From: a virus
IMG/VR virus record: IMGVR_UViG_3300020385_000002
Span: 1 to 40,955 of that record
DNA length: 40,955 nt
Direction: 5' to 3' (one strand)
A model generated the notes under the pieces. That model searched no databases and was not told where the DNA came from. It saw only the letters and a program-made list of their open reading frames with translations. Shown here in pieces: positions 5,063-40,577 of the stretch (the first letter of the stretch is position 1; each line of letters begins with the position of its first letter). The position numbers were made by a program, and so were the translations under genes.

Positions 5063-8000
5063 ATTCGGCCTCCTTGCCTTTGAGTCTTTCAATAACCTTA
5101 TCTAGCTGCCGTACCCTTTTAGAGTCCCCGTTATTAGGGTCCCATCCCTTGCGTTCATCATTGAACTGGAATTCCCACGAAGGGCGAAGCTCTTCAGCGT
5201 ACTCCCTCCATTTGGTAACCAGGTCCCGCTCAAGCATGGGGTACTCTTCCATGACCTGTTTCAGGGCTGCATCTCGGAAAGTCTCGACCTGATCCTTTAC
5301 CCAAGCGTCTTTGGCAGAAACACCCTTTTGTCTCAGCATTGTGCCTTCAGCATCTTGCAGCTCATGGAGCCTTCTCAAATCAGCCAAATCTCCTTGAGCT
5401 GGGTCGCCTTCTTTACCCCCAAGCCAGTAATTATGCAGCAAGTCATAAAGCGTGTACTCACGCGTTTCAATCTTGCCGTTGACTTGGAACTTGCCCTTTA
5501 GGGTAACTTCGCCAGTAAGCTCTTGGTAACGGTGGTATGCAGAATGCTCATTCACTCCATTCTGGTAGCTACGCATGTCAAGCCCCCGAATTTCACTTCG
5601 AGGCGGGCCAATATGTCGATCCATTTCGGCCAGACCAAGGTAAACCGGGTCATCGGTCTCAAATCCAACGTAGACCGGAGATACGAAATTGAAGTAGCTA
5701 AGGAAGTCAGCTCCTGGGGTTTCGCCTCGCCGGGCCATTTCACGGAAACGAGGGGCTTTGTACATAACCTCCCCGATAGGCGTGTAGCGAGGCGGCAGCT
5801 CATCCGTTTCTCCAAATCCAAACATGGTCCGTCCGGTATATGCGTCCCAAATATCAATCATGTCACGCTGAACAGGGTCCAGTGTGTCTAGTAAGTTTCT
5901 CGAAAATGAGGAGAATGGAGTTGCACTTGTCGCCACGTTCTGGAACCAGTTGTCCGCATACCTGGTAGGGTCTTCCATCGCCTTAAACATATCGCCCAGG
6001 CCTTGAATGTAAGACTTATTTTCCAACTGCTCCATTGTGGAATAAAGCAACCCTGTGAACAGATTGATTTCCTGGTCTTCAGTAAGGCCTTCTTGGCTGT
6101 GCATCAGCTCCAATGTATTCACAATAACAAGTGTGTGAATTGCTCCAGGGTCGAGTCGCATAATGGAGGCCTGGCCGCCTTCGAACCCAGGAATCCATGA
6201 AAGGTCTACGGAGTTTGCAACATACCCGGCGTTCTTCCAGGCCTCTCGCCCTTCCTTTGTGCCTGGGGTTGCCCCGCGAAACGCGCCCTGGGACCATAGC
6301 TCGTAAGTAGAGTAGATAATTCCAAGGCCCATCATCTGGCGACCTAGAGCCCTGTTTCTGATATTAGCTTCAGGGCTTCTCATTGCCTCTAAATGTCGCC
6401 TATGGAAGCCCCCCATAATGTCTTCTTGGCCGGGGTTCCATCTTTGCGACTCAACGCCCAGCTTCTGCCTTCGTTCTAAATCTGCATGTTGAACGTGTTC
6501 CATTGCTCTTCGCATAAGCATTTGCATTTGAACATTCTGGGTCTCTGAAACTTCTCCAGGTTTCCAATTTCTTGGATACCCCAAAGCCTTACGGCCCCCG
6601 CTCTGCTCCAAAACCCATGAGGTTATATGCTCTGGTGGCTCAAGCCGGTTAGCCGGTATTGTGTTTCGGTTCCATGACTTGACGGGTGACCCGTAAACCC
6701 GGCGAGCATGATCTGAAATTTCACCGTGCCAGCGTTTTGCAATTTCCTTAGAAAGCCGCTCGTGCATTCGTTCAGGCAAGACGTTATTTTTTAACGCCAT
6801 ATTGATTCTGGCGGCTTCACGGCGACCGACAGGGACCATCCGATCATCTATTTTTACTGGCCCGTTTGTCATTCGGTAGGCAGCTCTCTCTGCCCCTTCT
6901 GCAATAGTAGCAGTTGGTGAATAATCAAATGCCCGCTCAAGAATCATCCAAGGGGTACGGAGAAACGGCACGATGTACCTTGGAAACCCTTTCAAGTTAG
7001 GGTGATCAAGCAAGCCTTGAACATACTTTCCTACCGAACCTTCTTTGAATGGGGTCTGAAATACTGGCTCTACTGCTCTCTCTTCAACATACTTGACCAT
7101 TTCTACATGGCGAGGGTTCTGAGTCCACTCAATTTCCATTCGCTTTTGGACGGCTTCAAGCTGCTCAAGTCCTTCCAAAGCAAGAATTTCAGGGTCGCTA
7201 TAAATTTCCTGCTCAATTACCCTTTCAGTCCTAAGCCTTCCATCTTTAATCGTGCGATCAAGCTCAACCTGTACATGCTCAAGAACTTGATCATGGCGAG
7301 TCTGCATCCATTTGTGAATTTCACTACTTGTGCTGGTCTCACTGATTGCACCAAGAGGATTTTCCATTTCCGCCTTTGCAATCCTGTTCATTTCATCTCT
7401 GTAAGATTTTGCCATTGAGGCCATTCGGCCCCCTGATTGACGGTAAATCTCATCAAAGAACTGAATACCTAAGCCTGGGGAACGGGAGCCTTTACCTATT
7501 GCATTGACAATTTTTGAGACATGGCTATCGGGATCCATTTGCATAGCCTTGGGAAGAAATGTGTTTAGCCTTTCAGGACTAATCGTTCCTAATCTCATAG
7601 AGTCTTCAAGCATATTAGCTTGGGGCATAAGTACGCTTTGCTCTTCCTTCATTGCCCTCAAGCCCATCTTTGTCGCGTTTAGCAATTTGAACCTGGTAAG
7701 GTTTTCCCAGGGCTCTTTGGCCCCCATGATGTCGCCTTTAGCCAACGCCCCTATGCTTGTAGCAAGGCCATCCATCCCCATCATTACCGCTGGGCTTACC
7801 AGCGAAAGTCCGAAGATTGTTCTAGGACCGCTCAAAAGCCATTGGGAAAACATCTCAACGCCAAAGTCTTTTAGCCAGCTCACTGAATTGAAGAACTTCG
7901 AAGAAGTGTCCTGAGCAGCAAGCTGTGCAAGCCGCTTGTACGCTTCTGGCCCATCTCCGATAGACGCGTGCAGTTGCAGGAGCCGCTGTCCTGTTTCGGT

Positions 8001-11000
8001 TGTTTGACCTAACTCTCTAAGGAATGCACGAGAAGTTGCCTCGTCTTTCAAAACCTCATCAGTAGGCAGATGCGCAGGCATTCTCCAGGCAGACAATTCA
8101 GCACCAGCACTAGAACGCATAGTGGCCACATTAGCCTGAAGCCATTGGAATTGAATCCAGTCCCTTTGGAATGTAGCCATTGCCATAGGGGTTTGCAATT
8201 TCTGAGCCATGCGACGAGCTTTTAGAACCTTTTCACCTTGCATTCGCATAATGGTGTTAAGAGCAAAGACTCTGTGCATTCTTGCGGCTTTATCTCGGGG
8301 GTCTCCTTCCCTGAGAAATTGATTTATGGTTGCTTCTAGCTCAAGCGGATCTCGCCCCATCCAATCATTGACAAGTTTTAGTCCCTGTTCTTCTACTTCG
8401 TCCCAGGTAACCTTGCCGATGTTTACATTCTCTTTGTACAGGTATCGAGAGAGATCCTGGTACGCGGCCACCATGATCTGAAGCTCTTCCTCTGTACTCC
8501 ATGTGTTTGAGCTAATGGAAGCATCTGGGGGGTAAGACCCCACGATTGTTGGATCTTCTGGGTTGCCAGATCGGACCCTATCTGGGTCTAGGCCTGGACG
8601 CACGTTCCCTGGCCCCTGGCGATTTCCAGGCTTTTTAATCCTGGCGACAGCCAGCATATCTTCCGGTTTGAGTTTGTCTCGCCAATCAATTCCCTTTGCT
8701 GCCCAGTCCGCAATTCGGCCTGCAAGGGTACTCCAATCAATAGGATCAATATATCTGCCAGGAGCGTATCTAATAGGCAAATCAGTTCGACGGGCAAGGT
8801 CTTCAAAGAATTCCTTGATATGCGGCTTTAGCCTTCCAACGCCTGGGGCATTGCCTTTTGTGTCGATGTATATGTCCCGCATTTCTGCGACAAGTCGGGC
8901 AACGGCCTGGCGTTTCTTTGGAGGGATTGAGCTAGGGTCTTTGCTCCATCGGATTGCAATGTTCTTGAAAGCTCCTGAAAAGTCTTCCATCTTGCCACCA
9001 GGTCCGGTTGTCCAGCCTTCTGGCCCAATGTCAAACGCCTCGTTCATTGCTTTCTTAAGGCTTTCATCTTTGCTTGCAAACAGTTGAGCGTGCAACGCGT
9101 GACCAAACTCGTCTGCCGCGTCTACCGCGTCGGCCCCATTGAATCCTCTAATAAAAGCAACGCCTGTGTCGAAATCGACTTCAGCATGAGCGTTAGTTCG
9201 TGAATACAAAATAGGTTTTGCATCATTTCCAAAATCACCTTTGCCGAATGAAGGTGGGACTACCTCACCGGAGGCCTCCCTGGCACTGGCAATCTGCTCC
9301 ACAAAATCCTTCATAGATTCTTTGTCACGAGCTTCAAGCAATCCACTGTCTAGTATTCGGAACCCAGCGTCTTCTAGCTGCTTTTTACCTTCTGGAGTAG
9401 AAGCAAGATCGTCAAAGAATTTCTTTTCGTCTGGCAAAAGCGAAACGCGAATGCTGCCTGGCCGACCGCCTCCCGAGGCCATAACCTGCCTGGCTCCCAA
9501 GCCCTTTGGGCCTCCGCCAATGAACACGCTTGTTAGCTGGCCGTTGTGGCGCACAAACTGATCCATCAGTTCTTCCGCCTGGTCTAAACCCATGTCGAAA
9601 GTTTCCGTCATGAGTCTGCCCATTGCAGGGATCAGGTGTTCAATTTGCCAATCTTTAAGCCCAAATCCTTCATACTCAAGCTGCGCTGGAATGTTGCTCA
9701 TCTTCACTCCAGAGTCGTAAAGCTCTTGAGCCCTCTTCATTCTTGCAACTGTAAATAGATAGGTGTTGCGAATGGCAACCTTAGTTTCCGGCATAAGAGT
9801 GTCGTATGCCAGATTCTTTATGCCTTGGAGGACAGGGGCTACGCCAGTCTCTTCCGCAATCGCTTCTGCCCCTTCTCTTACTTGCTGTGTCGCGGAAGCT
9901 ACCCTTGGGCCTGCGGTTTGTTTTGCCCATCCAAAGGAACGCCCGGCCCAGCCTATAAGATCATCAATGAGCTTAACGCCAATAAGGTCTTCAGTAGCAC
10001 TAGCAAGCCTGCCGTAGATCCGTGTCTTTGGATCGTCTGTGTATTGCGTAGAGTCTAGTGGCTCAAAGAGGTACTTGTCGAAGAAGTTTCTTGCTGCACT
10101 CCAAGACTTGCCGTCAAACTGTTCGTTTAGAACTGTGCTGACATTTCCCTTAGAAGGATCAAAAGCTACGGCAACAGCGGCTCCTGATCCAGCCATGTAA
10201 GTGCTGCCATATCTAACCATGTCACCGATTGACTTCCCGCCTCGATTTCGGAATAGAGATCCTCCTCCAAATCTCCAGAGGCCAGTAAGTCCTCTAGTTA
10301 CCCTGGAAGTCGTTCCAGCAATAGGAATAAACCAGGTCATTACCTGGCCTACCCCCTGGAAAATTGAATCTGCCATTCCTTCTGGAGCCCCGTAAAACTC
10401 TTCTGAATCGAATGTTTCAATGTAATCGTTAGGGTCTTCAGTTGTTGCATTGTGAATATCAACGCCAAAGTTGTACCCTTCAACAATCCCTTTGTGTATA
10501 CCTTCTCCAACGCTGCCAACCAACCACAAATTATCCGGCATACTTCTTGCGCCCCATCGCCAATGGTCCGCAGGAGTACCCGATGCAATCGCCTCAATCC
10601 AGGGGTCAATTTGAAATTTAGCAAAATCATCCGTGACGTATTCTCTCGCCCATGCTTTTGCAAATTCTTCTGGATTATTGACTACAAACTCGGCCCAATC
10701 AGGCAAGGCTTCAGTAGCTTTCTTGTCAGGGTGAAGCTCGCTTGTGGGATTGGTCTTAGCTTCCTCCCTTGCTTCAGCGTCTTTTTCAGCCTGTTCTAAA
10801 TCTTGATCGCCTTGCGGCAAAGCCGTTTCCGTGCCAGGGGGAGTTTCTGGTAACACTTCAGGGCCAGCTTGCATCGCTGGCATTACCTGTTGAACAGCTT
10901 CTGATACAGCAGGGTCCTGAGCAGCTTGCCCAGCTCCCTCAAGCATCTTTTGCATCCATGATGCGGAGTTGTCTCCAGCTTCTTCGGGAGCTGGCTGCGT

Positions 11001-22001: not shown

Positions 22002-23637
22002 TCAGGCGTTGAACATGATTGCCCCTGCGCACCAAGGCGAGAGGACATCGTAGCCGACCAACATCTGAGCCTTCATAAACTTCCAAATATCTTCAACACT
22101 TGTCGCAAGCAAGTGTCCGTCGAACGAATCGACCGCTGTATGTCGCCATACAGTTGAGACCATATCATCATCCACATGGGATGCTCCGCGCTTCGGACTG
22201 GCTTCAGTCCTACTCCCTTTCGGGATGGTCGTTGCACGTTCCTGTCGATTGACAGGCTTCGCTCAGGATTGTCTACGAGAGATGTTCCCTGAGTTCACGG
22301 AGTTCTCACGCTGCGATTGCTCGACAGCGGACGCAAAAGTCTACGTTCCGACGTTCATCATCTTCGATGACCGTGCGGACTCCACCGGCCTGAACCATGC
22401 CGACGGCAGCAGAGCCTTCTGAGGCTCCACACATTGCAATGGCAGCACAACCTTGATCACTTCCACCAGTAGCAGAGCAGTCATAATCGTACTTAGCCAT
22501 AGTTGCCCCACCCTGGGTATTGTAATTTGCGAAAGTGCTTCCACTTGGCAAATGGGTGGTCAGGACGAGGTTAAACCCTGCAAGCGTGCCAATGACTCGT
22601 TCATTGAGCGAGCCAGCGGTGTTATTAGGGTTGTAATCTCGATTGAAGATTGTGAGATCGTGACGCAGGATCTTGCGGATATGGGGTCCGATAAACAGAT
22701 ATCGCCCATCTTCAGGGACATGATCGTCATCGAATTTTTCTGCAAGAGCATGTGCCGCGTCAACGAAAGCATTTACGCCACCAGTGGCATCAGTGAACGC
22801 TCCAGTGAGCGAGTTAGATGCTACTGCTCCAGTAACGAGCTGGCCGCCAGGATAAATCCCGTCAACGCCCGCGTTCTGTGCGGCTTTCATAGCAATCGTT
22901 GCAATCTTCTTGTCATTATCAATAGCCAATGAGCGACCCAGCTTGGTCGCGTATGGACGAATGACATCAAAGTGAGACAGATCAAGGTCTTGGAACGGAA
23001 CGTCGATAGCGGCGACGAGCATATCGTCAACGCGTACTGTCTGTTCGCTCATCTTGATCTTACGTCCGGCAATGAAATCACCGGGAACATGGTAACCAAG
23101 CTGAAGACCGCCCTCTTTACCCTCGATAGATCCGTTGCTTCCGGTATCCGTACCAATGGTTCCAAGGTCGATATCATCGCCAATGACGGGCCACTGAGCA
23201 ACGTGGCCGCCGCTCAAGACCTTTTTGGCCATGATGTTTTGCTGGTTATCATAAAAGACTGTTTTTGCTCTAAAGGCTTCGAGTACAGTCACTTGTGTTC
23301 ACGGCTGTTCGTTAGTCAACCGCCGCCGTGTGGCTGCTGCATGTCGCCATGCAGTTCAGACTATTTCTTCACCAGGTCATGGTGCTGCGCGCTTCGAGAC
23401 CACTTGGCCTCTACTCGGTTTCCCGATAGTCGTTGCACGTTCCCATAGGGCTTCGCTCAAGATTACCTCGATGAGGCTTCCCTTGAATTCACGCAGTTGT
23501 CACAGCGAGATCCCTCTCGCTGGGGGCAGTGTACTACCCGAAAAAATCTTCAAAGCAAGTTCACGAGTATCCGCACCCAAGTTACTACTCAGGGTACGGG
23601 TTGCACCAAATCCGGTGCCAGATGGGAGGTCAGGCAT
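22002..23637 (-). CDS. Major capsid protein (gp10-like), split by two group I introns
   Basis: The gene is read as join of exon 1 (23637-23536, 34 codons), exon 2 (23289-22324, 322 codons) and exon 3 (22109-22002, 35 codons plus stop), giving 391 residues. AAAGGAG lies 8 bases before the ATG at 23637. Exon 1 ends ELALKIFSG and exon 2 begins TVLEAFRAK, rebuilding the T7 gp10 segment LFLKVFGGEVLTAFART. Exon 3 restores the C-terminal KF...VGYDVLSPWCAGAIMF, matching KYAMGHGGLRPEAAGAV. Unspliced, the largest frame (23292-22306) has a false GTG start and a false ending. The intron 2 3' junction could shift by a few codons. About 160 bases upstream hold no gene. Confidence 0.92.
22110..22323 (-). 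ncRNA. Group I intron 2 (IA2, td-like) in the capsid gene
   Basis: A 214-base ORF-less intron. P1 pairs exon CGCTGT with intron GCAGCG, with a U-G pair at the 5' splice site. Core pairings: P3 CTCCGTG/CGCGGAG, P4 CTCAGG/CCTGAG, P6 CCTGTC/GACAGG, P7 GACCAT/ATGGTC, P7.1 CCC/GGG, P7.2 GGACTG/CAGTCC, P8 ATCC/GGAT, P9 CTGTATG-GCGA-CATACAG. The P7.1/P7.2 insertion defines subgroup IA. The words AATCCTGAGCGAAGCC and CAACGACCATC parallel the T4 td core. The 3' end is placed after a G at 22110, where exon CTTG can pair with intron CGAG (P10). A hairpin ACACTTG/CAAGTGT overlaps that end, so it is less certain. Confidence 0.9.
23290..23535 (-). ncRNA. Group I intron 1 (IA2, td-like) in the capsid gene
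   Basis: A 246-base ORF-less intron. Exon 1 ends TCGGGT, the same GGGT as the T4 td 5' exon, and pairs with intron GCCC through a U-G pair (P1). Other pairings: P2 GCGAGA/TCTCGC, P3 CTGCGTG/CGCGCAG, P4 TCAAG/CTTGA, P5 CCTC/GAGG, P6 CCC/GGG, P7 GACTAT/ATAGTC, P7.1 CGG/CCG, P7.2 GAGGCC/GGTCTC, P8 CACCA/TGGTG, P9 CTGCATG-GCGA-CATGCAG. The intron ends in G at 23290, and exon 2 TGTACT pairs with the intron's first bases AGTACA (P10). These joints keep the reading frame and rebuild a conserved capsid segment. Confidence 0.95.
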
Positions 23638-27528: not shown

Positions 27529-29955
27529 TCATGCAAAAAAGTAGGGTGCTTTCAGCACCTGGCTAAGATCCAAAGAGCCTCGCGGCGGAGGCATGGGAAG
27601 CTCAAGGCCTGGGTAGGCCTCGCTCCACTCCTCATAAGCCTGCATGGCATGGTTCACCTCATGCAGCAATATGAACTGCTCTCGAAGAGTCTGTCCAAGC
27701 TGCCCCATATTTGACAGATGAGCCCAATATGAGTCATGGACAAAGGCCGTAGTAATCCCTTGAAGCCGTGATTCAATCGCGGTAAATAAGGCATGAGCGG
27801 CATCAATCGCATGGACAAAATTTGGCGGCAGCCCTTGGATCTGCCTTCGCTTGGCGACGGGGGCATCTGTGTCACGATGGCCTAGCAAGACATCCTGTAC
27901 GATGGTCTTGATCCGGAACTTTCTCATGTTCCTGTAGGGCTGGACGATTGGAACACCTACTGGTGAAGTCCAAGAAATGGGCCTGCTGGGATCCTCTTCG
28001 CACATCATCCTGGCACAGGCCTCAAGCCACTTCATGAGATTGGTAGAAGCAGGGAACAGGTGGGCTACCTGGGCAAAGATTATTTTCGCCAGGTAATTAG
28101 CCATCTTTCTTCGCCCCTCACGGGGGTACTCGGCTTTCACTAGCTCCTCATAGACCTGGTTCTTGGCCCCAACCAGGGTCGAGTTATATTGCCTCACCAT
28201 GCAAGGCCTTTTAACAAGAGCCCTGCCCTGCTTACCCTGCAAATGAGGCAAAGCGGTCAAGGCCATGTCGCACCCCCCCCGATGCTTCAGCTCCAGCTCA
28301 TCAACCACCAGCTTCAAGGCATCCAGGTAAGGATCATGAGGCCTGTTGCTAGGCAGCATGTTGACCTTCTGAGCAGTAACCGGGTCAAGCCCAATAGCTC
28401 CATAATGCTGGTTCACATTATTAGATCCATCCACATGCCCCGGAAGGTGAGAAGCAAACTCTGGGTCGAAGATAGCCCAGCAGCAATTCATAAACTGGAA
28501 GGGCTCTTCAGCCTGGCCCCACTCATGAAATGTGTCTTCTGGATTCTGAGCCCACTCTTTAATCTGCGGAAGGTTGTCCTCAGTCCATGAAATACGATCA
28601 TCAAACGAGAGCTTGTCCTCGCCCCAATGATTGGCTGCTTGGATGTAAAGAAATTCAACGCCCTCATCTGTTACCGGAACTGATTCTGAAAACAACATGC
28701 AAGCCCTAGCCGTGTCCGGCCCGTGATGGTTTGGGCTGGTCGCCGGGATGGGGTAATGCCGTAGCCGAAAGTCAAATTGGCATGGCATGTAAATTTGATC
28801 TGAACCAAAAAACATCTCAGCAACAGACTGACGTTGCAAGAATTCAATACGAGCCCCCTTGAGCTTCGCATTAATTGTGTGAACCTCACTAGCAGCAGCC
28901 TTCCATCTTTTCAAAGAGTCAGGGTTGGTCTCAATATCAGAAGGCTTTGCTGGCATGGGAACCACATCAGGCTTAGGAACGCCTGCGCCTCCCCCGCTTT
29001 CATAAATACCCTTTTGAAGCTCAACCATTCTTTGATTGATTTTCCAGGGAGTCGCGTTGATTGCGTTCAGCCCCTCATAAAGGGTCTCTCTTTGGGAGTT
29101 ATTCAATGCCTTCCGCTGGTCACTTGTGGGCTTAGATATGAATGGGGTTCGAATCCTGACGTAGCCCCCCTCTACTTCGTCGCTCCAAGGGTACGGCGGC
29201 ACAAGCATGGGCAGGTATCGTGGTCTCATTGATTGGCGTACAAGATGCCCATCTTCAATTAGCTGCACAGACTCCTCGGCAAGCCGAATAACTCCAATGC
29301 TTCTGTTGTTTTGATAAACAAGTTTCCTTTCAAATGCTGGCAGCGGGTCATTCGTCCCATGCTGTTGAACAGTTGCCACGCTCAAAACCTTGTCAATCAG
29401 TATCGCTCCAACCTGCGTGCAAACCTTGCGGCTCCACAGCGAATCGTCCAACGTCTTCTTGGCCCACTGATTCACCTTGGTAGAAGACATCTGCTTAAAC
29501 TTTCTTTCAAGCTCTTGCAGTTTGCTGGCTTCCGGATCCGCCCGCATCGTGTCCATGTGAATCTCGGCCAGGACAGCCGACCCAATGGCATAAGACATCT
29601 TTAGAAATGTCTCTCCGCTAGGCTTAGACATGCACCTAGAAAGCATTTCGTGAACAGAAATAACTGCAAGACGTTCTGGATCTAAGTGCAACAGGACGGG
29701 GCCATAAACACCACGGCCCTTGCCAGGACTGCCGGTGTAAATAAGCCTATGTTCTTCCTTTATCGCCATCGCTAGTGCCGGGACCCAGTAAACGACAAGG
29801 CGTTCGGCTGGCTTCAATGAAGCTCCATCATCTCTGTCGATAGCATCTTGAGCGAGCCGCCTGTAACGAGCTACCCCTCTTGTAACCGCTTCGGTTTCAA
29901 GATTGATTTGCTCCTCAAGCAAAGATCCCTGGAGAACGTCCCCAACTCTCGTCAT
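27529..29955 (-). CDS. T7-like single-subunit RNA polymerase
   Basis: An 808-residue DNA-directed RNA polymerase that should transcribe late genes from phage-specific promoters. Motif A is VDGSNNVNQH with catalytic Asp509 (T7 D537). Motif B is RALVKRPCMVRQYN with Arg578, Lys582 and Tyr590 (T7 R627, K631, Y639). Motif C is FVHDSYW with Asp741 (T7 D812). The residue after the motif B Tyr is Asn, where T7 has Gly640. It is about 75 residues shorter than T7 gp1. It lies just before the structural genes, as in phiKMV-type phages. The start overlaps the nuclease stop as ATGA. Confidence 0.95.
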   Translation of the reverse strand: MTRVGDVLQGSLLEEQINLETEAVTRGVARYRRLAQDAIDRDDGASLKPAERLVVYWVPALAMAIKEEHRLIYTGSPGKGRGVYGPVLLHLDPERLAVISVHEMLSRCMSKPSGETFLKMSYAIGSAVLAEIHMDTMRADPEASKLQELERKFKQMSSTKVNQWAKKTLDDSLWSRKVCTQVGAILIDKVLSVATVQQHGTNDPLPAFERKLVYQNNRSIGVIRLAEESVQLIEDGHLVRQSMRPRYLPMLVPPYPWSDEVEGGYVRIRTPFISKPTSDQRKALNNSQRETLYEGLNAINATPWKINQRMVELQKGIYESGGGAGVPKPDVVPMPAKPSDIETNPDSLKRWKAAASEVHTINAKLKGARIEFLQRQSVAEMFFGSDQIYMPCQFDFRLRHYPIPATSPNHHGPDTARACMLFSESVPVTDEGVEFLYIQAANHWGEDKLSFDDRISWTEDNLPQIKEWAQNPEDTFHEWGQAEEPFQFMNCCWAIFDPEFASHLPGHVDGSNNVNQHYGAIGLDPVTAQKVNMLPSNRPHDPYLDALKLVVDELELKHRGGCDMALTALPHLQGKQGRALVKRPCMVRQYNSTLVGAKNQVYEELVKAEYPREGRRKMANYLAKIIFAQVAHLFPASTNLMKWLEACARMMCEEDPSRPISWTSPVGVPIVQPYRNMRKFRIKTIVQDVLLGHRDTDAPVAKRRQIQGLPPNFVHAIDAAHALFTAIESRLQGITTAFVHDSYWAHLSNMGQLGQTLREQFILLHEVNHAMQAYEEWSEAYPGLELPMPPPRGSLDLSQVLKAPYFFA

Positions 29956-30338
29956 GGCTTCATCGCCTTTGGAGTGATGGTCTCGTATTCATAAAAATCC
30001 TTGCCCCGCTTCTTCACAACAACAAGCTCTAGTCTTCCATAGGCTTCCCATAGTGTCTTGGTTGTCTTCCATTGCGGAGTTTCAAACCCCTTGACTTCGA
30101 CGTAATAAGGAAATCTCCCGTCCTCTGGAGATGGGATAACCAAGAAGTCAGGCTTGAATTTATTCTCGGGGCAACCTAAGCAATGAACAGGAACCTGGCA
30201 GTTGAACTCAGCAATAACTCCTGAGTCGAGTAGCAACTGCAATCTTTCGGCATACTCTTTTTCAGCTTTAGAATCAAATGTTCTGCCAAGAGATCGCCTC
30301 TGTTCGGACGGAGATACATTGTGTTTATTTCTTCTCAT
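29952..30338 (-). CDS. PD-(D/E)xK endonuclease (DUF1064-type)
   Basis: A 128-residue nuclease. TFDSKAEKEYAERL (Glu26), KPDFLVI (Asp64) and YYVEVKGFET (Glu81, Lys83) form the PD-(D/E)xK core in the layout of DUF1064 phage proteins. It contains two additional Cys residues (HCLGC). Such proteins are thought to be Holliday-junction or structure-specific endonucleases; in T7 the gp3 resolvase fills this role. GAAGGGGTGGT precedes the ATG. Confidence 0.85.
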   Translation of the reverse strand: MRRNKHNVSPSEQRRSLGRTFDSKAEKEYAERLQLLLDSGVIAEFNCQVPVHCLGCPENKFKPDFLVIPSPEDGRFPYYVEVKGFETPQWKTTKTLWEAYGRLELVVVKKRGKDFYEYETITPKAMKP

Positions 30339-30664
30339 ACCACCCCTTCATTCCAAATCTCATCCGCCCACTTGAACTGATCTTCCTTAGCCTCTTCTTC
30401 TCCGTCGCCCATGTACTTATCGTGAACCCATTGCCTAACGTGAATAAGCTCATGAGCAATGGTCGCTATGAAGTTTCGAAGAGACTGGTCTTCAGCCACA
30501 GAAATGCAATATGTATTTCTCTTTGTGTCATGAGGCCAAGCCATGCCCCAACAACCAAGCTCATTAGAAGTTGAAATGTGCATTTCGATCTTGCAATGCA
30601 ATCCCATTTTCAACTGCAAGTAAGCCAAGCACCTGCGAGAAATGTCATGAGTAGTCTCAGGCAT
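30335..30664 (-). CDS. SprT-like zinc metallopeptidase-fold protein
   Basis: A 109-residue protein. IAHELIHVRQW contains a clear HExxH zinc motif (His71, Glu72, His75), followed by GEEEAKEDQFKWADEIW, which could supply the third ligand. The size and order fit small SprT/WSS1-like zincins in phage replication modules. The start at 30664 follows AGAGAGGAGCCCTTGT and overlaps the primase stop; the longer open frame upstream lies in primase sequence. Proteolysis of DNA-bound proteins is a possible role, inferred from relatives. Confidence 0.75.
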   Translation of the reverse strand: MPETTHDISRRCLAYLQLKMGLHCKIEMHISTSNELGCWGMAWPHDTKRNTYCISVAEDQSLRNFIATIAHELIHVRQWVHDKYMGDGEEEAKEDQFKWADEIWNEGVV

Positions 30665-31511
30665 ACAAGGGCTCCTCTCTAAGCAAAGACTGGAAGTCAT
30701 CCGGAGTCGCACCCTGTTTCACCCACTCTCTAATATCCTTTGCTGGCGGAACTATTACCTTTGCGGTATTACTGATCCCTTGAAGCCGGTCTATAAGATG
30801 CTTTGCGCCGTTTTGGCCAGGCGGATCATGGTCCGCAACAACAACAACATCCTGATTAACGCACAGTTTTTCGATAATTGTTACACCGCCAAGGCAGTTG
30901 CTTCTTCCTAGAACTTTGTAAAGACCTAGAGCCAGGAGAGCTGCTGTATCTGTAGGCCCTTCTGCTATGTAAACAGGACCCGGCAGTTTTGAAATAGGGT
31001 TCAGTGTTGCAAACAATCCGTCAGAAGAACCACGGACAGCCCTTTTCTCGCCAGCTTTAGACCTGGTTCTGATACCAACAACCTTCAGAGTTTCGTCATA
31101 CATAGGAAATGTCCAAGCCTCCAACCCTTTGTGCCAACCGATCCCAAGCATGAAAAGATGCCGACCTTTTAAGCCAAGCCGTTTAGCCAGGCGGTCCCTC
31201 TCTTCGTGCATGTCCATTCCATTCGCTAGGTATTCGGCCTGGACGTTGTTGAAGTTTGAGAGTTTGAACTCTTTTGCAGGGGGGGAAATTTTTCTCGGGA
31301 CAAAACTTCCGCCAGGCACATCCTCTTCTCGTCTAAAAACAGTTGCATTCCCAGGCTCTCTAGGATCGTCGGCTGGCCGGACAACCCGATATCCAGTTTT
31401 CGCAATTACTCGCTTGCACCTGTGGGCTCCGTCTTCCGTGTAGCCGCACCAATCCGGTTTCCCGCAAATCTCACAAGGCCGACCAGGTTTAACATCTCTC
31501 CATGTAGTCAC
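30657..31511 (-). CDS. DNA primase (zinc finger plus TOPRIM)
   Basis: A 284-residue primase. The N-terminal zinc-binding motif is CEICGKPDWC...C (Cys13, 16, 21 and about 30). The TOPRIM domain has VYIAEGPTDTAALLALG (catalytic Glu) and VVVADHDPPGQNGAKHL (Asp-x-Asp). There is no fused helicase domain, unlike T7 gp4. The helicase is a separate SF2-type gene two positions upstream. The GTG start has GGAGGACTC upstream. Confidence 0.9.
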   Translation of the reverse strand: MTTWRDVKPGRPCEICGKPDWCGYTEDGAHRCKRVIAKTGYRVVRPADDPREPGNATVFRREEDVPGGSFVPRKISPPAKEFKLSNFNNVQAEYLANGMDMHEERDRLAKRLGLKGRHLFMLGIGWHKGLEAWTFPMYDETLKVVGIRTRSKAGEKRAVRGSSDGLFATLNPISKLPGPVYIAEGPTDTAALLALGLYKVLGRSNCLGGVTIIEKLCVNQDVVVVADHDPPGQNGAKHLIDRLQGISNTAKVIVPPAKDIREWVKQGATPDDFQSLLREEPLYA

Positions 31512-31825
31512 GAGTCCTCCAAGCTGGCTTGCTCGGCCTCTCGTGCAGCGGTCATGACCTCTTCTGAATGCTCGTCAAGAAAGCAATCAAACCACTCAAG
31601 ACCTTCAAGATCAATCTTGTGTTCAGTCTCGCTGTATGGTGAGTAGATTGTGATCTGGCAATTAAAGCCTGTCACATTCAAAGAGTCAGGGTCGCATGGG
31701 ATGTATCTCCCGTCCCCTCCCTTCCCGACAATGTAATCAGCATCAACATCACAGGAAACAAAGGTATGAAACTCAGTGTTTCCAATCTTTATCAGGAACT
31801 CATCTTTTTCGATTGTAAAACTCAT
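31508..31825 (-). CDS. Hypothetical acidic protein in replication module
   Basis: A 105-residue acidic protein, beta-rich in the first 80 residues (EFLIKIGNTEFHTFVSCDVDADYIVG) and ending in an acidic helix. AAGAGGAGATTCAG precedes the ATG. It is coupled by 4-base overlaps to helicase upstream and primase downstream, so a replication-related role is likely, but no family is recognised. Confidence 0.7.
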   Translation of the reverse strand: MSFTIEKDEFLIKIGNTEFHTFVSCDVDADYIVGKGGDGRYIPCDPDSLNVTGFNCQITIYSPYSETEHKIDLEGLEWFDCFLDEHSEEVMTAAREAEQASLEDS

Positions 31826-33465
31826 CTGAATCTCCTCTTGAAACCAGAATTCGCAAGCTGTTGCAAATACTTGCTCGCTTGCTCTCGTGTCAGTGACTTA
31901 GCAGACAGCTTGGCTCTACGAAGAGCCTGCTCTTGGAAAATCGTCCAAAGTCCTTCTTTGTCCCGCCGTCTAATCTCACGGATAACTTGCTGGGCTTCAG
32001 CCTTAGTCATCTCGCCGCCGTCAATCCGGCCATCAGTGCTTTTAGCAAGCCATTCGCACTGCTCAAGAGTCGATCTGCCATCGTCTTCAAGAAAAACATC
32101 TGGCCCAAGATCACAACGATCAAACGGGTTAATTTTCCGCGTCTTGTATTTAGCTCTAGCAACCAGGCCAGCTCGTCGGCACTTCTCTCGCTCTTCAGCT
32201 TCAATTCGAGCCTGCTCAATTAACTCATCCGGGTCAACAGCTTCGCCTTCGATGTTTTCTTCAGATAGCTCGCGGGCCAAGTCCATAACTTCACCAGGGA
32301 GAGTCCCCCCTAAGATGTCGCCAACCCAAATCAGCTTGTGCTTTCCAGCGTTGCCGTGGAAATCAATAATCTCGCAATGAGTTTTCCTAGATCCCTGTAT
32401 GGCAGCTTTTCTTTGGCTAGGGGTCTCTTCCTGATCCACTAAGCCGGGCAAAGGCCGGAGGCCACGCCCAACCGCTTGGGCATACCAGGATCGAGACAAA
32501 GTTTTCCTCCCCAAGATGATGCACTCAGCTTCAGGGCAATCAAACCCCTCGACAGCAACATTTACATTCACCAGAACCTGAAATTCACGGCTCTTGTAAG
32601 TGTCAAAAATTATTCGGCGTTCATCTTTTGGGGTTGTGCCATCAACGTACCTTGCACAATTCTCCTTGTTTCGATTGAATATCTCAGTAACACGTTTCCC
32701 CTGATCCCGGTTCGCAGCGTAAAAGATGGCCTGCCTATCCCCGATTAGCTCCAGGGAAGGCGAGACCATCTTGTGCATGATCTTCTCTTTACCAAGGATT
32801 TCCCTCAAACCCTTAGAAGAAAGATCACCTCTGTTTCTACGGACATTTGTGTAGTCTAAATCTTCAACATAGACAGTCCGTTGACGTATCGGAACAAGCC
32901 ACCCACCATCAATGGCTTGCCGAATGTTCATTTCATAAGAAACTTCGTCGTATGAAACAGCTAAAGAACCACCACTATCACGATCCAACCTGTCAGGCGT
33001 AGCTGTTACGCCAAGAGTTTTATGAGACGGATTCTTTCTCAAATGCTCCAGCACTGTTTGGTATTCTTGCGCAGGAACATGGTGAGCCTCGTCAACAATA
33101 GATAAAACCCACTGATCCGGATCTTTAACTAATCTTTGTAGCCGAGCGCAACCGTTCCTTGCTAACGATTGGACCGTCGCAACAACGACGCGAGGAGCCC
33201 ACAACGCACCAGATACCTTCCAATCCGCCATTTCGATACCGACTTCTTTAGAAGTGACATGGCGTAAAGTGTTGGCAAGCTGATGAATCAGCTCCTCTCT
33301 GTGTGCAATAACAAGTATCTTGCCCTGGGGAAACCTGTTGACCAGGTGAGCTAAAGTTACGGTCTTACCGAGCCCCGTCGCCATCACCATTAAAAGCCCG
33401 TTGTTCTCCTCAAACTTCTCAACAGTCGCTTCTAATGCCTCTTCTTGATATGGGCGCAGTTTCAT
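31822..33465 (-). CDS. Superfamily 2 DNA helicase
   Basis: A 547-residue helicase of the DEAD/DEAH-type SF2 fold. Motif I is MATGLGKT (28-35), motif II DEAH (125-128), motif III TATP (154-157) and motif VI QAVGRGLR in the C-terminal RecA domain, after VAVEGFDCPEAECI (motif V). The N-terminal LRPYQEEAL is the Q-type motif of UvsW/RecQ-like and type III restriction-like helicases. The last 150 residues are a charged extension, perhaps for substrate binding. It may unwind D-loops or forks. GAGGGGAGCAGTACAG precedes the ATG. Confidence 0.92.
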   Translation of the reverse strand: MKLRPYQEEALEATVEKFEENNGLLMVMATGLGKTVTLAHLVNRFPQGKILVIAHREELIHQLANTLRHVTSKEVGIEMADWKVSGALWAPRVVVATVQSLARNGCARLQRLVKDPDQWVLSIVDEAHHVPAQEYQTVLEHLRKNPSHKTLGVTATPDRLDRDSGGSLAVSYDEVSYEMNIRQAIDGGWLVPIRQRTVYVEDLDYTNVRRNRGDLSSKGLREILGKEKIMHKMVSPSLELIGDRQAIFYAANRDQGKRVTEIFNRNKENCARYVDGTTPKDERRIIFDTYKSREFQVLVNVNVAVEGFDCPEAECIILGRKTLSRSWYAQAVGRGLRPLPGLVDQEETPSQRKAAIQGSRKTHCEIIDFHGNAGKHKLIWVGDILGGTLPGEVMDLARELSEENIEGEAVDPDELIEQARIEAEEREKCRRAGLVARAKYKTRKINPFDRCDLGPDVFLEDDGRSTLEQCEWLAKSTDGRIDGGEMTKAEAQQVIREIRRRDKEGLWTIFQEQALRRAKLSAKSLTREQASKYLQQLANSGFKRRFR

Positions 33466-34130
33466 CTGTACTGCTCCCCTCTGGCATCAAACAGCTCTTG
33501 AGTAACCCACCCAATGCCTTCACACAAATGGCACTGCGACTGCCTGCCGAAACACTCAGGGCATGGAACTGTTGGTATGGACTTGTTGATCAATGCCGCC
33601 AGCGACTTAATATGCCCCTGAGCCTCGTTGATATACAAGTGTCGGCCTGGTCCGGAATGTAAACTATTCAGCCGCTTGCCAATTTGCTTAACTTCAAAGA
33701 CCAGGGCTTGAAACTCAGACTTGTCCGGGGGCTCAAACGTCGTAGGCTTAGGCCGCAGCTCCTCATGAACATCCTGAATCATGGGGGCTGTAACCTTTTC
33801 GATTCCCCCTTGACGTTCAGAAGCTATGGCTAAAACCTCACTTCTTTGATCTTCCGGTACATCGCTTAATTTCAAAGCTGCTCGCAAGCTGGGGACATCA
33901 TGTTCCTGCTTAATCTCAGCAGCTTTCAACAGGTTGTAACCCTGTCGCCAGCCCGTCTCAATCTCAGACTCCATGTAATCCTTAAGTGTGCCGTAACCGC
34001 CTTCTCGAAACAGCTCGTTGTCTCGTATTTCAATCAAAGCCTTGCCAGCTTCAAAGAAACCTGAGAGCCCCCGCTTAACTGTTTCATTGAGGCGACGGAA
34101 CGCGTCCTTGCGTTCGATCTGACCATCCAT
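33462..34130 (-). CDS. Protein with C-terminal DnaJ-like zinc finger
   Basis: A 222-residue protein. The N-terminal half (GFFEAGKALIEIRDNELFREGGYGTLKDYMESEIETGWRQ) resembles the FxxGxxLxxIRDxxLYR...TFxxYCxxxWG domain found in phage and plasmid DNA-associated proteins. The C-terminus has CPECFGRQSQCHLCEGIGW, a four-Cys zinc motif like DnaJ repeats. DNA binding is likely, function unknown. It is coupled to the helicase gene by a 4-base overlap. Confidence 0.75.
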   Translation of the reverse strand: MDGQIERKDAFRRLNETVKRGLSGFFEAGKALIEIRDNELFREGGYGTLKDYMESEIETGWRQGYNLLKAAEIKQEHDVPSLRAALKLSDVPEDQRSEVLAIASERQGGIEKVTAPMIQDVHEELRPKPTTFEPPDKSEFQALVFEVKQIGKRLNSLHSGPGRHLYINEAQGHIKSLAALINKSIPTVPCPECFGRQSQCHLCEGIGWVTQELFDARGEQYR

Positions 34131-34141
34131 GCCAACCCCCG

Positions 34142-34705
34142 CTATTCCTTTGGCAAACCGCCAATTTTGATATTCATTTTCTGTGATGCTGGAACGATTC
34201 GGATTCCATCCGGCTCCTCGCCCGTGCCTAACGTAGACTCTGTACCCAGGACATACTCTTTGATCGGAGTCTTTCGCAGAGATTTAGTAATGCGAACAGC
34301 GTCTTCTAATTCCCTAGCAATGTCTTCAGGCTGCTGGTCTAGCCAACTGAAAAAACTTTCATCATCAACCACTTCAACAGTTTCCTTAGTGTCTAGCACC
34401 TGGTAGGAAGCGTGATCGGTATGCACGGTCTTTACCCTGCCGCCGTTTTCGTGAATCATCTGGGAGACCAGGGCCTGAACCTGTGAGTTAAAATGGTATT
34501 TAAGAGCAGCGATCTTGCGATCAATAACACTGACCTGCTTTTGGATCTGTATCTGCATGTTCTTTTTGCAGAATTCCAACCCACTTAGCTCTTTTCCGTA
34601 CCAGTTTAGAAGGCTCTTGGGGTTACCAACATGGATAACACCTTCCTCAACTAATTCTTGAATCTCGATCTCTTCTTGCTGCTCTTGTGTGATTTGTTCA
34701 GTCAC
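34142..34705 (-). CDS. Gp157/Gam-like recombination accessory protein
   Basis: A 187-residue protein. A long coiled coil (about residues 40-85) is followed by HASYQVLDTKETVEVVDDESFFSWL and TPIKEYVL...PDGIRIVPASQKMNIKIG. This layout is shared by Siphovirus Gp157-like and Mu Gam-like proteins, which often lie next to annealing proteins; Gam-type proteins protect DNA ends from host nucleases. The GTG start has GAGGAGGTGGACGC upstream and overlaps the ERF gene stop. Confidence 0.75.
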   Translation of the reverse strand: MTEQITQEQQEEIEIQELVEEGVIHVGNPKSLLNWYGKELSGLEFCKKNMQIQIQKQVSVIDRKIAALKYHFNSQVQALVSQMIHENGGRVKTVHTDHASYQVLDTKETVEVVDDESFFSWLDQQPEDIARELEDAVRITKSLRKTPIKEYVLGTESTLGTGEEPDGIRIVPASQKMNIKIGGLPKE

Positions 34706-35697
34706 GCGTCCACCTCCTCGGCAGCAACCAGGTCAGCCATCATTTGATCTGCAAGGCTTTCCCTGGGCGCAATTTCAATCTTGTCGAAATCATTCGCGCT
34801 TACCCCTTCAATGACATAATCGCCATCCTTCCAATGCTGATGAACAAACGGTTGCCCCGCTGGCCAATTTTCATCAGGCCTTTCAGTGTTGCGAGTCCAT
34901 GAGATAATCACTTCCCCGTTGTTGGGCTCTTGCACTGCCTCATCAACTAGCTTGATCGTGTCTTTGCAGAATGTCTTTATCTCAGCTCCGCTTGAAGTAG
35001 TAATCACCCAGAGCTGCCAGCCATCTGGCTTCTTCTTATCTTTGGCAATCATCTTGTGATCTACAATGATGAAGCTGTCTCGACCTCGCAGTGTGCCTGC
35101 TGGGCCGGGATCGCCGTAGAAATCTCCTGAAGAAGCTGACCCAGTAGCGGGCGGGGTTTGCCTCTCTTCCGAGGCCCCGCTAACAGGGCCAGTCTTCTTC
35201 TTTGGAGTAGCGGCCTTTTTAGGAGCCGCTTTCTTGCTGATCTTCGGAGCGGAGGAGCGTGTCCGATTCTCAGCTTTTTCCTGATGCGCAAACTCAGCGG
35301 AGTCATCGCCTCCCCTGGGCAGGTTTAATGCTCCCACAATAGCAAACTTTGCAGCATAAGAATACATTGAGCCGCACTGTTGAACCAGCGGTTGGCGACC
35401 CCCAGGAGATTCAATAACTTCGCAATAAACGGATTCCCGTTCACCGCTTGGGCCATAGTTCAAAGATCCTTCAACCCGGAATTTCATCTTTCCAGATTCA
35501 AGCTCTTGAACGGTTGCCCTGGGCAAGGAGAAAGAAAGCCCGGTTCCGTCAAGCGCGTCGTTTGCTACTTCTCTTACTTGCTCTACTGAAGTGCTTTGCC
35601 ATGCCCCAGCGTCAATGGTTTTTGCTACATGCTTGCGATCAATAGAAGCCAATGCTTCAAGCAATGGTGATGGTGTAAGTGTCTGTTCTGCGTCCAT
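34702..35697 (-). CDS. ERF-family single-strand annealing protein
   Basis: A 331-residue protein. The ERF core ends in QCGSMYSYAAKFAIVGALNLPRGGDDSA (about residues 105-135), matching the SxYxxxYxLxxxLxxxxxxDDDA signature. A basic Lys/Ala/Pro linker follows, then a second domain (FIIVDHKMIAKDKK...WQLWVITTSSGAEIKTFCKDT) that looks like an OB-type beta barrel. ERF proteins anneal complementary single strands and help circularise or recombine phage DNA. The start at 35697 has AAAGGAAAGG upstream; the longer frame does not. Confidence 0.85.
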   Translation of the reverse strand: MDAEQTLTPSPLLEALASIDRKHVAKTIDAGAWQSTSVEQVREVANDALDGTGLSFSLPRATVQELESGKMKFRVEGSLNYGPSGERESVYCEVIESPGGRQPLVQQCGSMYSYAAKFAIVGALNLPRGGDDSAEFAHQEKAENRTRSSAPKISKKAAPKKAATPKKKTGPVSGASEERQTPPATGSASSGDFYGDPGPAGTLRGRDSFIIVDHKMIAKDKKKPDGWQLWVITTSSGAEIKTFCKDTIKLVDEAVQEPNNGEVIISWTRNTERPDENWPAGQPFVHQHWKDGDYVIEGVSANDFDKIEIAPRESLADQMMADLVAAEEVDA

Positions 35698-35714
35698 GCA
35701 ATAAACCTTTCCTT

Positions 35715-36102
35715 TGTGTCTTCGATTGTCTTTGCGCAACTACTGCGTGCCTTCCCGTGTAAAACGATTAGGCCTTGTTATGACTTGAGCTTTCTGTGTC
35801 CTGGCCTGAGCTAACAGAACCCCACAAGCTCACGGAATAGTCCCCCTGACCAAACCGACACAGCTCTGTGTCCGAATTGTGCTGCTTTGTGTCTGAAAGC
35901 CTGGATGACTTCCAATTTCTAGTTAGCCGAGCCACAATATCTTGTATACGATTCATGCCGAACCCCTTGTTTTCGTATCGACATTGGGCCAATCAAATTG
36001 TCAGAGCCTGTACCGCCCATTGCGATATGCTCTTTTCCTGTACCCAATGACCACTTTACTATCATTTTTTGTAGCTCTGTGTCAAGCGAGCTATTGTGTG
36101 TC
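35715..36102. repeat. Cluster of GACACA/TGTGTC repeats around the integrase 3' end
   Basis: The plus-strand hexamer TGTGTC occurs at 35715, 35795, 35867, 35888, 36078 and 36097. An opposing GACACA at 35857 forms a 7+2+7 inverted repeat GACACAGCTCTGTGTC (35857-35872). On the minus strand the consensus is GACACARAGC. The sites lie in the last part of the integrase gene, the following short gene and the gap beyond. Integrase arm-type sites or operators are the leading ideas; a partial duplication of coding sequence explains some copies. Confidence 0.6.
35768..35956 (-). CDS. Short hypothetical protein overlapping the integrase end
   Basis: A 62-residue Ser/Asp/Gln-rich protein. AAGGGGTTCGGC precedes the ATG at 35956, and it overlaps the integrase gene by 38 bases. 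The middle (SDTKQHNSDTELC) resembles the integrase tail (GTKTHNSSLDTELQ), and the underlying DNA is similar too, so this may have arisen by duplication of the integrase 3' end. It could equally be a non-coding attachment region with an open frame. Confidence 0.45.
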   Translation of the reverse strand: MNRIQDIVARLTRNWKSSRLSDTKQHNSDTELCRFGQGDYSVSLWGSVSSGQDTESSSHNKA

Positions 36103-37232
36103 TTTGTGCCACACACTTTTTCCAGGTCGTAATCTGAGATCGTGTCGTAATGCTTGTCCTGTACAGCCTTAGAATGCCCTGTCCATTGGGCGATGACAAA
36201 CCCATCATGCCCCTGTTGCCTCCAGGTCGTAATCCTAGACTTGCGTAACATCATGAAGGTAAAGGGCTCAACCCCAGCTTTCTTCTGAGCATTTTTCAGC
36301 TCCCTGGTAATAGAAGATCCATGAACCCTATTGCCTTCAACCAAACCACAAACAGTTTTGTCCTGCATAGCCGTGTCCCAGGGCATAAGGCCCCGGTCGT
36401 TATCGGGTCTCGCATAGCCTAAAGCCTGCTCGTGTAAGATTTTGGCAGTCGCTTTTCTCATAAACTCACGCGATATAGGACAAATTCTTTCCCTTGTCTT
36501 CCTCTTAGGAATGAGGGCTTGAGGATACTTCTCGTCAATTATGTGCATGTCTCTCCACTTTTGGTGCAATGCCTCCCCGGTCCTCATGCCAAGCTCGTAA
36601 CAAAGGAGAAGCATCCAGCCCACGCCTGGAGAACAAAATGACACAACGCGATCAACCTCATTGGCAGAGATGACCCTTCGAATGACGTTCTTTGTTTCTG
36701 GATTTGATTTCAAATGTTCAAAATTGTGTGCAGCAATCAGATCGTGCTTTTTCGCAAAATTGAAAATGGTTTTAACTGCACGAACTTGGTTGCAGACCGT
36801 GGCTTCCACAAGAGGTTTTTCCCTGGATCCGCGAGATGACTGAGATGGCAGCCAAAGCTCAAACAATGTGGCCTCTTCAGCAGTAATCGACTCAATAGCC
36901 CGGCTTGCTGTAAATCGCTGGATGAGCCTGGAAAAAGCTCTCTTATGTATAAACGTGGTCCCCTTGGCCTGATTCGCTTTCAAAGCGAAGTATCTATCAT
37001 GCCACTGCCCAAGAGTGAGCTGCCTGGTAATCGTTGAACGTACAGGCTCCCTGGCATGGTCGGCAATCAACCGACGCATAAACGCGTCCGCCTGGCGTTT
37101 AGTTGCAGATCCTCCGCAATCATTACGCTTCCCTAGCTCTCGACCTAATGACTTCCCCCGCTTTTTGCCCTGGATGTCAGTCCATCGAACGATCCAATAA
37201 TCGCCGTGTTTCGCAACTATATAATTTTTCAT
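35919..37232 (-). CDS. int: Tyrosine recombinase / integrase
   Basis: A 437-residue integrase. The start is the ATG at 37230-37232, with AGGATTTGAAA upstream. There is an N-terminal arm-type domain (about 1-65), a core-binding domain (about 70-170, LTLGQWHDRYF...) and a catalytic domain with Arg217 (GMRTGEAL), Arg333 in LRKSR, His353 in WTGHS and nucleophile Tyr362 in KHYDT. The His of the usual HxxR box is Arg330, a substitution seen in some active members. About 75 residues extend beyond Tyr362. It implies lysogeny, uncommon but known among T7-like podoviruses. No attP core was identified. Confidence 0.92.
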   Translation of the reverse strand: MKNYIVAKHGDYWIVRWTDIQGKKRGKSLGRELGKRNDCGGSATKRQADAFMRRLIADHAREPVRSTITRQLTLGQWHDRYFALKANQAKGTTFIHKRAFSRLIQRFTASRAIESITAEEATLFELWLPSQSSRGSREKPLVEATVCNQVRAVKTIFNFAKKHDLIAAHNFEHLKSNPETKNVIRRVISANEVDRVVSFCSPGVGWMLLLCYELGMRTGEALHQKWRDMHIIDEKYPQALIPKRKTRERICPISREFMRKATAKILHEQALGYARPDNDRGLMPWDTAMQDKTVCGLVEGNRVHGSSITRELKNAQKKAGVEPFTFMMLRKSRITTWRQQGHDGFVIAQWTGHSKAVQDKHYDTISDYDLEKVCGTKTHNSSLDTELQKMIVKWSLGTGKEHIAMGGTGSDNLIGPMSIRKQGVRHESYTRYCGSAN

Positions 37233-37262
37233 TTTCAAATCCTGGTAGGTAATTCAAATCCG
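37233..37262 (-). promoter_or_regulatory. Integrase leader with ACCTACCAGGA ribosome site
   Basis: The untranslated stretch before the integrase start contains TTACCTACCAGGATTTGAAA. It resembles the CAACTACCAAGGAG leader found before other early genes (38122, 38706, 39564 and 40578), with the AGGA acting as ribosome binding site. It supports the ATG at 37232 over the in-frame TTG at 37238. Confidence 0.5.
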
Positions 37263-39582: not shown

Positions 39583-40569
39583 CTACTTCTTGGCCTTGGG
39601 CTCATACTTCAAGGCCTCTTCGGCTTCACCCTGATCAGGATCAATGCTGAGAATCATGTTGGCGGCCTTGGTAGCTCGACCAGCAGCGAAAATGATGGCC
39701 TTCACATCATCTTTGAGCATGGAGACCCAATTCTGGATATATGCGTTCCGGTCTTGGATATCGTTATCGATCTCGATACCAAGAGTCGAATTAATGAAAG
39801 ACGCTCCAAGCTCTGCCACTAGTTCCTCTCTGCTGTAGGTCTCAGAACCGAATGCGGCTTGACCATCTACAGCCCTATTCAGTCTGTCTTTGTGGCCCGT
39901 ACTGTGTACCTGTTCATGGGCCAGGGTATGTAGATAGCTTTCCGGGCTCCTGAATTGATCCCGATTCGGCATCTGGATATGGTCCCTGGTTGGATCGTAG
40001 TAAGCCCGATCACCACCATTGGAGAAGGTAAGCGGCTCCCGGTTCATGTAGTCAGCCAGGACAGTATCGGCCTGATCTACTAGATCCTGATTGGTAGCGT
40101 CTTCGGATACCCATCCTTGACCATTCAAGCGGTCCAGCCTGGCAGCGTATCGGGCCAGGACATCAGCAGGCATTTCACACTGATCGAAATTGAAAACCGC
40201 GAAGCTCTTCAAGATCGGAATCTGTTTCCCGGTCTTCTTCTTGGTCTTCTTGTCTACTTCTTCAATGAAAGACCACCATACCGCCCGGCTTGACTTCTGG
40301 CCTTTGACAACGGAGCCGCCGAGCTTCTTGGCTTGCTTGAATGTGATCCACCAAGGAGAGGAGAAGCCTTGCAGCTCTGCAATCAATGGGAGAATCATGG
40401 CGTTGATGCCTTGGTATAGCTTGCCGGTACTGGCTGATCGTGGTCCGCCCTGCTGGCTCCATGATCTACGCCAAGGGATACGATCAGATTCAAGGGATTC
40501 GATCACCTGGCCTGTGATCTCTTCATATAGATTCGGCTTGGCTTTGGCTGTCTTGGTCTTGGTGGTCAT
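39583..40569 (-). CDS. ArdC-like antirestriction protein with zincin domain
   Basis: A 328-residue protein. The N-terminal domain (NLYEEITGQVIESLE, PWRRSW, GKLYQGINAMIL, WWITFKQAKKLGGSVVKGQKSS) is the ArdC-type single-strand DNA-binding domain. The C-terminal half is a zinc metallopeptidase fold with TLAHEQVHSTGH (His218, Glu219, His222) and EELVAELGASF (Glu253, likely third ligand). ArdC proteins protect incoming single-stranded plasmid DNA from restriction. As the first gene behind the early promoter it is placed to act first on entry. AACTACCAAGGAGCTACGACA precedes the ATG at 40569, and the longer frame back to 40737 includes promoter sequence. Confidence 0.92.
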   Translation of the reverse strand: MTTKTKTAKAKPNLYEEITGQVIESLESDRIPWRRSWSQQGGPRSASTGKLYQGINAMILPLIAELQGFSSPWWITFKQAKKLGGSVVKGQKSSRAVWWSFIEEVDKKTKKKTGKQIPILKSFAVFNFDQCEMPADVLARYAARLDRLNGQGWVSEDATNQDLVDQADTVLADYMNREPLTFSNGGDRAYYDPTRDHIQMPNRDQFRSPESYLHTLAHEQVHSTGHKDRLNRAVDGQAAFGSETYSREELVAELGASFINSTLGIEIDNDIQDRNAYIQNWVSMLKDDVKAIIFAAGRATKAANMILSIDPDQGEAEEALKYEPKAKK

Positions 40570-40577
40570 TGTCGTAG

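Follow-up and report, generated by a model that had tools for sequence, protein, structure and literature searches.

Two putative td-like group I introns in a T7-type major capsid gene from a viral metagenome contig

Introns have been described in the capsid genes of several phages. In mycobacteriophage LittleE, splicing of an intron in the major capsid gene was established by RT-PCR and N-terminal sequencing, and the same paper cites a capsid-gene intron in phage Tuc2009 (PMC3706429). Group I introns also occur in the major capsid protein (MCP) genes of crAss-like phages, with five MCP fragments in one Zeta-group genome (PMC7886860). Jug phages have an average of 18.5 group I introns per genome, with RNA reads supporting the splicing of 37 of 76 (PMC12363816). 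The introns described below differ from these capsid cases: LittleE is a siphovirus with one 819-bp insertion that carries a putative homing endonuclease ORF and is called "most likely a group I" by its authors (PMC3706429), and the crAss-like phages are another phage group whose introns were recognised mainly via endonuclease domains (PMC7886860). The td intron of phage T4 (annotated as "group 1A") encodes I-TevI and lies in thymidylate synthase, whereas ours lack an endonuclease and lie in a capsid gene. Two studies reportedly deal with group I introns in T7-like phages, one of them, by its title, with DNA polymerase genes; those phages resemble ours in bearing group I introns. An earlier note on this DNA had listed genes for nucleotide metabolism, polymerases and lysins as the phage hosts of group I introns, which is right as far as it goes but omits the published capsid-gene introns (PMC3706429, PMC7886860). 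Capsid-gene introns in phages are thus already known, but we found no earlier report of a T7-type capsid gene as host in the titles and passages covered.

The window, by which we mean the whole 40,955-nucleotide stretch analysed (IMG/VR record IMGVR_UViG_3300020385_000002), has a T7-like gene order of head-tail connector, head assembly protein, MCP, tail tubular proteins and nozzle. The ORF containing most of the MCP matches PF21703 at 70.7 bits (cut-off 27), identifying a T7-like (Gp10A) major capsid protein. We read this gene as three exons separated by two td-like group I introns that are spliced by the standard group I pathway to give a 376-aa product (Table 1), and put the probability of this reading at roughly 0.94. 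The evidence obtained directly comprises a predicted fold with covariation, an empty site in a relative, in-frame joins and in-frame stops. Each intron would fold on the transcript and bind guanosine at P7, cleavage would follow the U of the P1 U.G pair, P10 would assist exon joining, and the intron would leave after its terminal G; we infer that both introns splice in this way, presumably independently of protein.

Table 1 Features of the interrupted capsid gene (positions in the window).
Feature	Position	Strand	Basis or remark
MCP exon 1, MPDLPSGTGFGATRTLSSNLGADTRELALKIFSG	23536..23637 (102 nt)	-	aligns with N-termini of six intronless Autographiviridae MCPs
Group I intron 1, phase 0	23290..23535 (246 nt)	-	RF00028 76.3 bits; empty site in L003, L004
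Intron 1 AGTACA, P10 partner of exon 2 TGTACT (23287-23282)	23530..23535	-	sequence
Intron 1 internal guide GCCC, P1 with exon GGGT (23539-23536), U.G at splice site	23524..23527	-	sequence, fold
In-frame TGA met from exon 1 in intron 1	23500..23502	-	begins 6 nt before P3
Intron 1 P3, 23496-23490 with 23391-23385; encloses P4-P6, P7 5' strand, P7.1, P7.2	23385..23496	-	
Intron 1 P7 3' strand, pairs with 23431-23427	23359..23363	-	core alignment
Intron 1 P9 CTGCATG-GCGA-CATGCAG; stem strands as in T4 td	23337..23354	-	Rfam match, NC_000866 comparison
MCP exon 2	22343..23289 (947 nt)	-	PF21703 Gp10A-like 2.1e-19, phrog_267 8.7e-27 on containing ORF 22306-23292
Group I intron 2, phase 2	22084..22342 (259 nt)	-	RF00028 67.2 bits; ortholog in L003, L004
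In-frame TGA met from exon 2 in intron 2	22306..22308	-	begins 6 nt before P3
MCP exon 3, including stop TGA	22002..22083 (82 nt)	-	first base completes V codon, then KFMKAQMLVGYDVLSPWCAGAIMFNA

The earlier note had placed a group I intron at 23290-23535, and a covariance-model search bore this out with a match to RF00028 spanning 23603-23337 (76.3 bits, E 8.8e-18), in which the model start is drawn into exon 1. It had seen only one intron in the gene, which holds for intron 1 but overlooks a second RF00028 match that spans 22348-22136 (67.2 bits, E 4.4e-15) and marks intron 2 at 22342-22084. Both scores exceed the gathering score of 50 bits, and these two matches, both on the minus strand and both within the capsid gene, are the only Rfam group I introns in the window. 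The T4 genome (NC_000866) gave matches of 105.3, 40.3 and 35.7 bits, the last two at 143595-143825 and 138508-138748, with the 40.3-bit match lying inside td. The two weaker T4 matches fall below the gathering score, so real introns of phages can go unannotated if that threshold is applied.

An unguided fold of intron 1 contained P1, P2, P3, P4, P5, P6, P7.1, P7.2, P8, P9, P9.1 and P9.2 (z -3.63; 0 of 200 shuffles as stable), and the free fold of intron 2 contained P3, P4, P5, the P6 extension, P7.1, P7.2, P8 and P9 (z -3.27), with P2, P6 and P7 not seen there. P7 is absent from both free folds because it forms a pseudoknot with P3. The P7.1 and P7.2 hairpins, which the earlier note had reported for intron 1, appear between P7 and P3 in the free folds of both introns and in the covariation structure; we take them to mark subgroup IA2, which would make both capsid introns IA2 and td-like. 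The P9 stem strands of intron 1 equal those of T4 td, as had been claimed, with different loops (GCGA versus GTGA), and the 3' ends are alike (TGAACA...TG before the exon). J8/7 reads GAAAU in intron 1 and in two of the other core sequences aligned below, versus GAUAU in most of the 20. The splice signals proposed for intron 1, namely exon GGGT, the P10 pairing and a terminal G at 23290, were all found in the sequence where expected. Intron 2 has its own set, with a P1 of ACGT/GCGT (U.G at ACGT), a terminal G at 22084 and a P10 of exon GAAGTTT with intron AGACTTT (7 bp including two G.U), so that a U.G pair at the 5' splice site, a terminal G and P10 can be read in both introns. The exon-guide pairing has four pairs only in each.

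Conservation of the structure was assessed over 20 aligned cores, comprising introns 1 and 2, an intron 2 ortholog (L069) and 17 others, hand-picked from 34 compact cores among 122 hits. The structure read from intron 1 gave standard pairs in 94.8% of 1014 cells, and 31 of 51 pairs changed on both sides, while slid versions of the structure reached at most 44.8% and 14; none of 500 shuffles reached any of five covariation measures. The weakest helices were P5 (72%), inner P7.2 (77.5%) and P9 (91.4%). Because the cores had been selected with an 18-base pattern plus short motifs, parts of P3, P4, P6 and P7 were fixed in advance, and pairs in those parts say little; the invariance of P6 and most of P7 across the 20 cores is likewise partly due to a pattern in that region. 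Outer P3, P5, the P6 extension, P7.2, P8 and P9 were free to vary. What emerges is a P3-P9 core with a P7/P3 pseudoknot, backed by covariation.

Removal of intron 1 links IFSG to TVLEAF in frame. The 376-aa protein obtained by removing both introns was aligned with the capsid proteins of CRP-403, CRP-118, HTVC201P, RHph_I20, a Limnohabitans phage and MmP1 (all intronless, Autographiviridae), with 27-32% identity to five of the six. All six align at the first join, in agreement with the earlier claim that precise excision restores a conserved capsid segment; the only gap there is one residue in RHph_I20, three residues upstream, and the second join is gap-free throughout. A gene caller might instead report the 328-aa ORF that starts at GTG 23292, within the last three intron bases, and one could take intron 1 for a dead relic, with the capsid made from that GTG without exon 1. 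We consider this very improbable: a Shine-Dalgarno sequence (AAGGAG) ends nine bases before the ATG of exon 1 but none is visible before the GTG, exon 1 encodes M1, L27, L29, K30 and F32, which are invariant in the seven-protein alignment, and every assigned pair of intron 1 is a standard pair.

The splice sites of intron 2 were set by frame, P1, P10 and alignment, without an empty site for the 3' end, and alternative in-frame joins exist. The join scan reached candidate ends down to 22086, and the adopted site, 22084, lies two bases beyond. In-frame ends at or above 22086 were rejected since they add residues missing from other capsid proteins (e.g., VEDIW), have no preceding G or have no U before the intron; the end of the Rfam match at 22136 was also rejected, as the match ends with P9 and not at a splice site. 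The 22084 site follows ATATTTG, was located by comparison with intron 1 and satisfies the U.G pair, the terminal G, the frame, P10, a relative and a gapless C-terminal alignment. In our own reading, the intronless L213 differs by one residue around this join. Phage T7 makes two capsid forms by frameshift, and two such forms are annotated in the MmP1 record; purposeful retention of intron 2 in part of the mRNA could similarly give a capsid form with a different, shorter C-terminus. Read without splicing, the frame continues past RRNV for only some dozen residues until a TGA, in the window and in L003 alike, but the C-terminal segment that would be lost can be aligned, gap-free, to the C-terminal block in the other six capsid proteins, and some intron RNA may be retained without any function, so that we give regulated retention very little credence compared with splicing of both introns.

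Two related contigs, L003 and L004, encode capsid proteins 66% identical to the window's in the best segment. At the intron 1 site they read TTCTCGGGG-ACTGTGCTCGAA with nothing between, a natural empty site. At the other site both carry orthologs of intron 2 (RF00028, 71.9 bits each), and the L003 intron has the identical position, length (259 nt) and join (N-V-K-F-M). Intron 2 is common to the window and this relative; intron 1, known solely from the window, appears to be either a gain in the window lineage or a loss in the relative. Close copies were sought, and five contigs had 16 bases of its 3' half in common; without an RF00028 match at the gathering score, and with a single 18-base blast match, we regard this as chance. 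Misassembly of the metagenome contig would account for the lack of a close copy among the loci examined and for the fact that no place in the phages collection, which may omit records very near the window, covers 80% of intron 1. Yet the first base of the insert follows the U of the P1 pair, its last base is a G, P10 matches, its flanks on both sides belong to one capsid gene, as in L003, and its best alignments to other introns are 72-82% identical (among the matches listed, from at least 119 loci); an assembly artefact is therefore barely conceivable. The data support a group I intron at minus-strand 23535-23290, towards the 5' end of a T7-like major capsid gene, and this is the best reading because the Rfam score exceeds the gathering score, the core covaries, splice signals are present, L003 and L004 lack the intron and the join is in frame and conserved.

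Related cores were collected by a pattern scan that returned at least 119 stretches; among the matches listed, tblastn with eight capsid proteins found a T7-type capsid gene in three (L045, L069 and L110), which are the same contigs as L005, L003 and L004. At E 0.001, RF00028 matches L003 and L004 but not L005, which is cut inside the intron. No RF00028 match at that threshold was found in the T7-type capsid genes of 80 IMG/VR records, six phage records or L213. The 80 were the best of at least 579 relatives and did not include L003 or L004, and the survey is biased against introns because broken genes score lower. One scan of genome contigs for a host or prophage, with 468 pattern matches, turned up no relative.

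Over aligned letters, identity is 76.8% between introns 1 and 2 and 85.7% between intron 2 and the ortholog in L003. A tree of 64 cores, rooted at its midpoint, joined intron 2 first to L069, next to L043 and after that to L081 and L019 (support 0.92-0.94); intron 1 grouped with L090, L031, L070, L082 and L011 (0.75-0.77) in a clade of 14 (0.84). Because the two fall in different clades, they were probably acquired separately, as judged from core sequences. Blast on its own does not clearly separate them, which counts against separate acquisition: among the matches listed, intron 1 scored best with L031 (127 bits) and nearly as high with the intron 2 orthologs L069 and L110 (114 bits), and with intron 2 itself it scored 80.6 bits. 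The placement of intron 1, moreover, has support of just 0.75-0.84.

Frames beside several of these related introns encode structural proteins. PHROGs matched the frames of L043, L081, L011 and L070 to major head proteins, the L031 and L090 frames to terminase, those of L014, L016 and L032 to RNA polymerase and that of L019 to a scaffolding protein. The introns nearest intron 2, of the same core type, adjoin phrog_9953 (L043) and Phage_capsid_4 and Mu gpT (L081); among those of the same core type near intron 1, the L070 frame matches SU10_MCP, and L031 and L090 adjoin the terminase frames. The L011 capsid protein matches phrog_267 (3.5e-20), the best family of the window capsid protein, yet is Phage_capsid_2 by Pfam, so remote kin of the window capsid family may carry an intron too. 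More broadly, the 95 distinct cores among the matches listed gave 90 downstream and 91 upstream frames, each the longest near the intron and not individually checked. The downstream frames listed included SU10_MCP (12), Phage_capsid_2 (3), Phage_capsid_4 (2), DNA_pol_A (9) and Terminase_6C (9), sets that may overlap, and by PHROGs 12 fell in one major-head family and 10 in one terminase family. Among uncultured phages, it would seem, td-like introns often reside in capsid and terminase genes. One contig (L083) carries two intron cores about 590 bases apart on the same strand (7581-8188).

Among the upstream frames listed, 13 of 91 matched one HNH family, and hence endonucleases are carried by, or lie next to, some td-like introns. 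Introns 1 and 2, at 246 and 259 nt, are too short to encode a homing endonuclease and are not classed as mobile introns. Pfam gave no homing endonuclease match for the 40 window ORFs scanned, which cover few of the small ones among the 174 listed ORFs of at least 60 aa; the closest to one is a Holliday-junction-resolvase match at 29952-30338 (phrog_190). Two Roseobacter phages have a small annotated HNH endonuclease gene just upstream of an intronless T7-type capsid gene, CRP-403 (L125, 2516-2746), where it matches PF13392, and CRP-118 (L130, 1-174). This gene may act as a free-standing partner in the spread of introns, or be a homing gene in its own right.

Both introns contain an in-frame stop just before the conserved core. 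The TGA occupies nt 34-36 of intron 1, with P3 starting at 40, and nt 35-37 of intron 2 and of the L003 intron, with P3 starting at 41. Among the matches listed, 25 introns had an upstream frame of 80 codons or more, and as a raw count the in-frame stop preceded P3 in 20 of them; the set includes the intron 2 ortholog L069, and one of the five exceptions extended past the contig end. Translation into the td intron reportedly can hinder splicing (PMC2988022). A ribosome running from the exon into either intron would stop at the TGA just before P3 and should therefore not unfold the intron core.

These observations extend the phage hosts of group I introns to a T7-type capsid gene, in which the two introns are apparently independent. 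ORF calling would misreport the window capsid protein by starting it in the last bases of the intron and giving it a false C-terminus. The sister phage, which lacks an intron at one site and has one at the other, makes with the window phage a handy pair for studying intron gain, loss and splicing cost in a highly expressed gene. Speculatively, capsid genes may be a preferred home of short td-like introns, which would spread among the capsid and packaging genes of unrelated phages; here, two separate stop-insulated ribozymes would gate the most abundant virion protein. We think this rather unlikely; if it were true, capsid output would track splicing and thereby guanosine, temperature and ribosome load.

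Between 5028 and 11111, where internal virion proteins are expected, the window encodes a protein of 2027 aa that matches no Pfam family at E 0.01. The region 27529-37238 encodes a T7-type RNA polymerase, a Toprim primase-like protein, a helicase, an Erf-like annealing protein and a tyrosine integrase, and no DNA polymerase family was found among the 40 ORFs scanned; the phage may be temperate and use the host polymerase. Near the record end (39583-40737) lies a gene for an ArdC-like anti-restriction protein with a zincin-like metallopeptidase domain.
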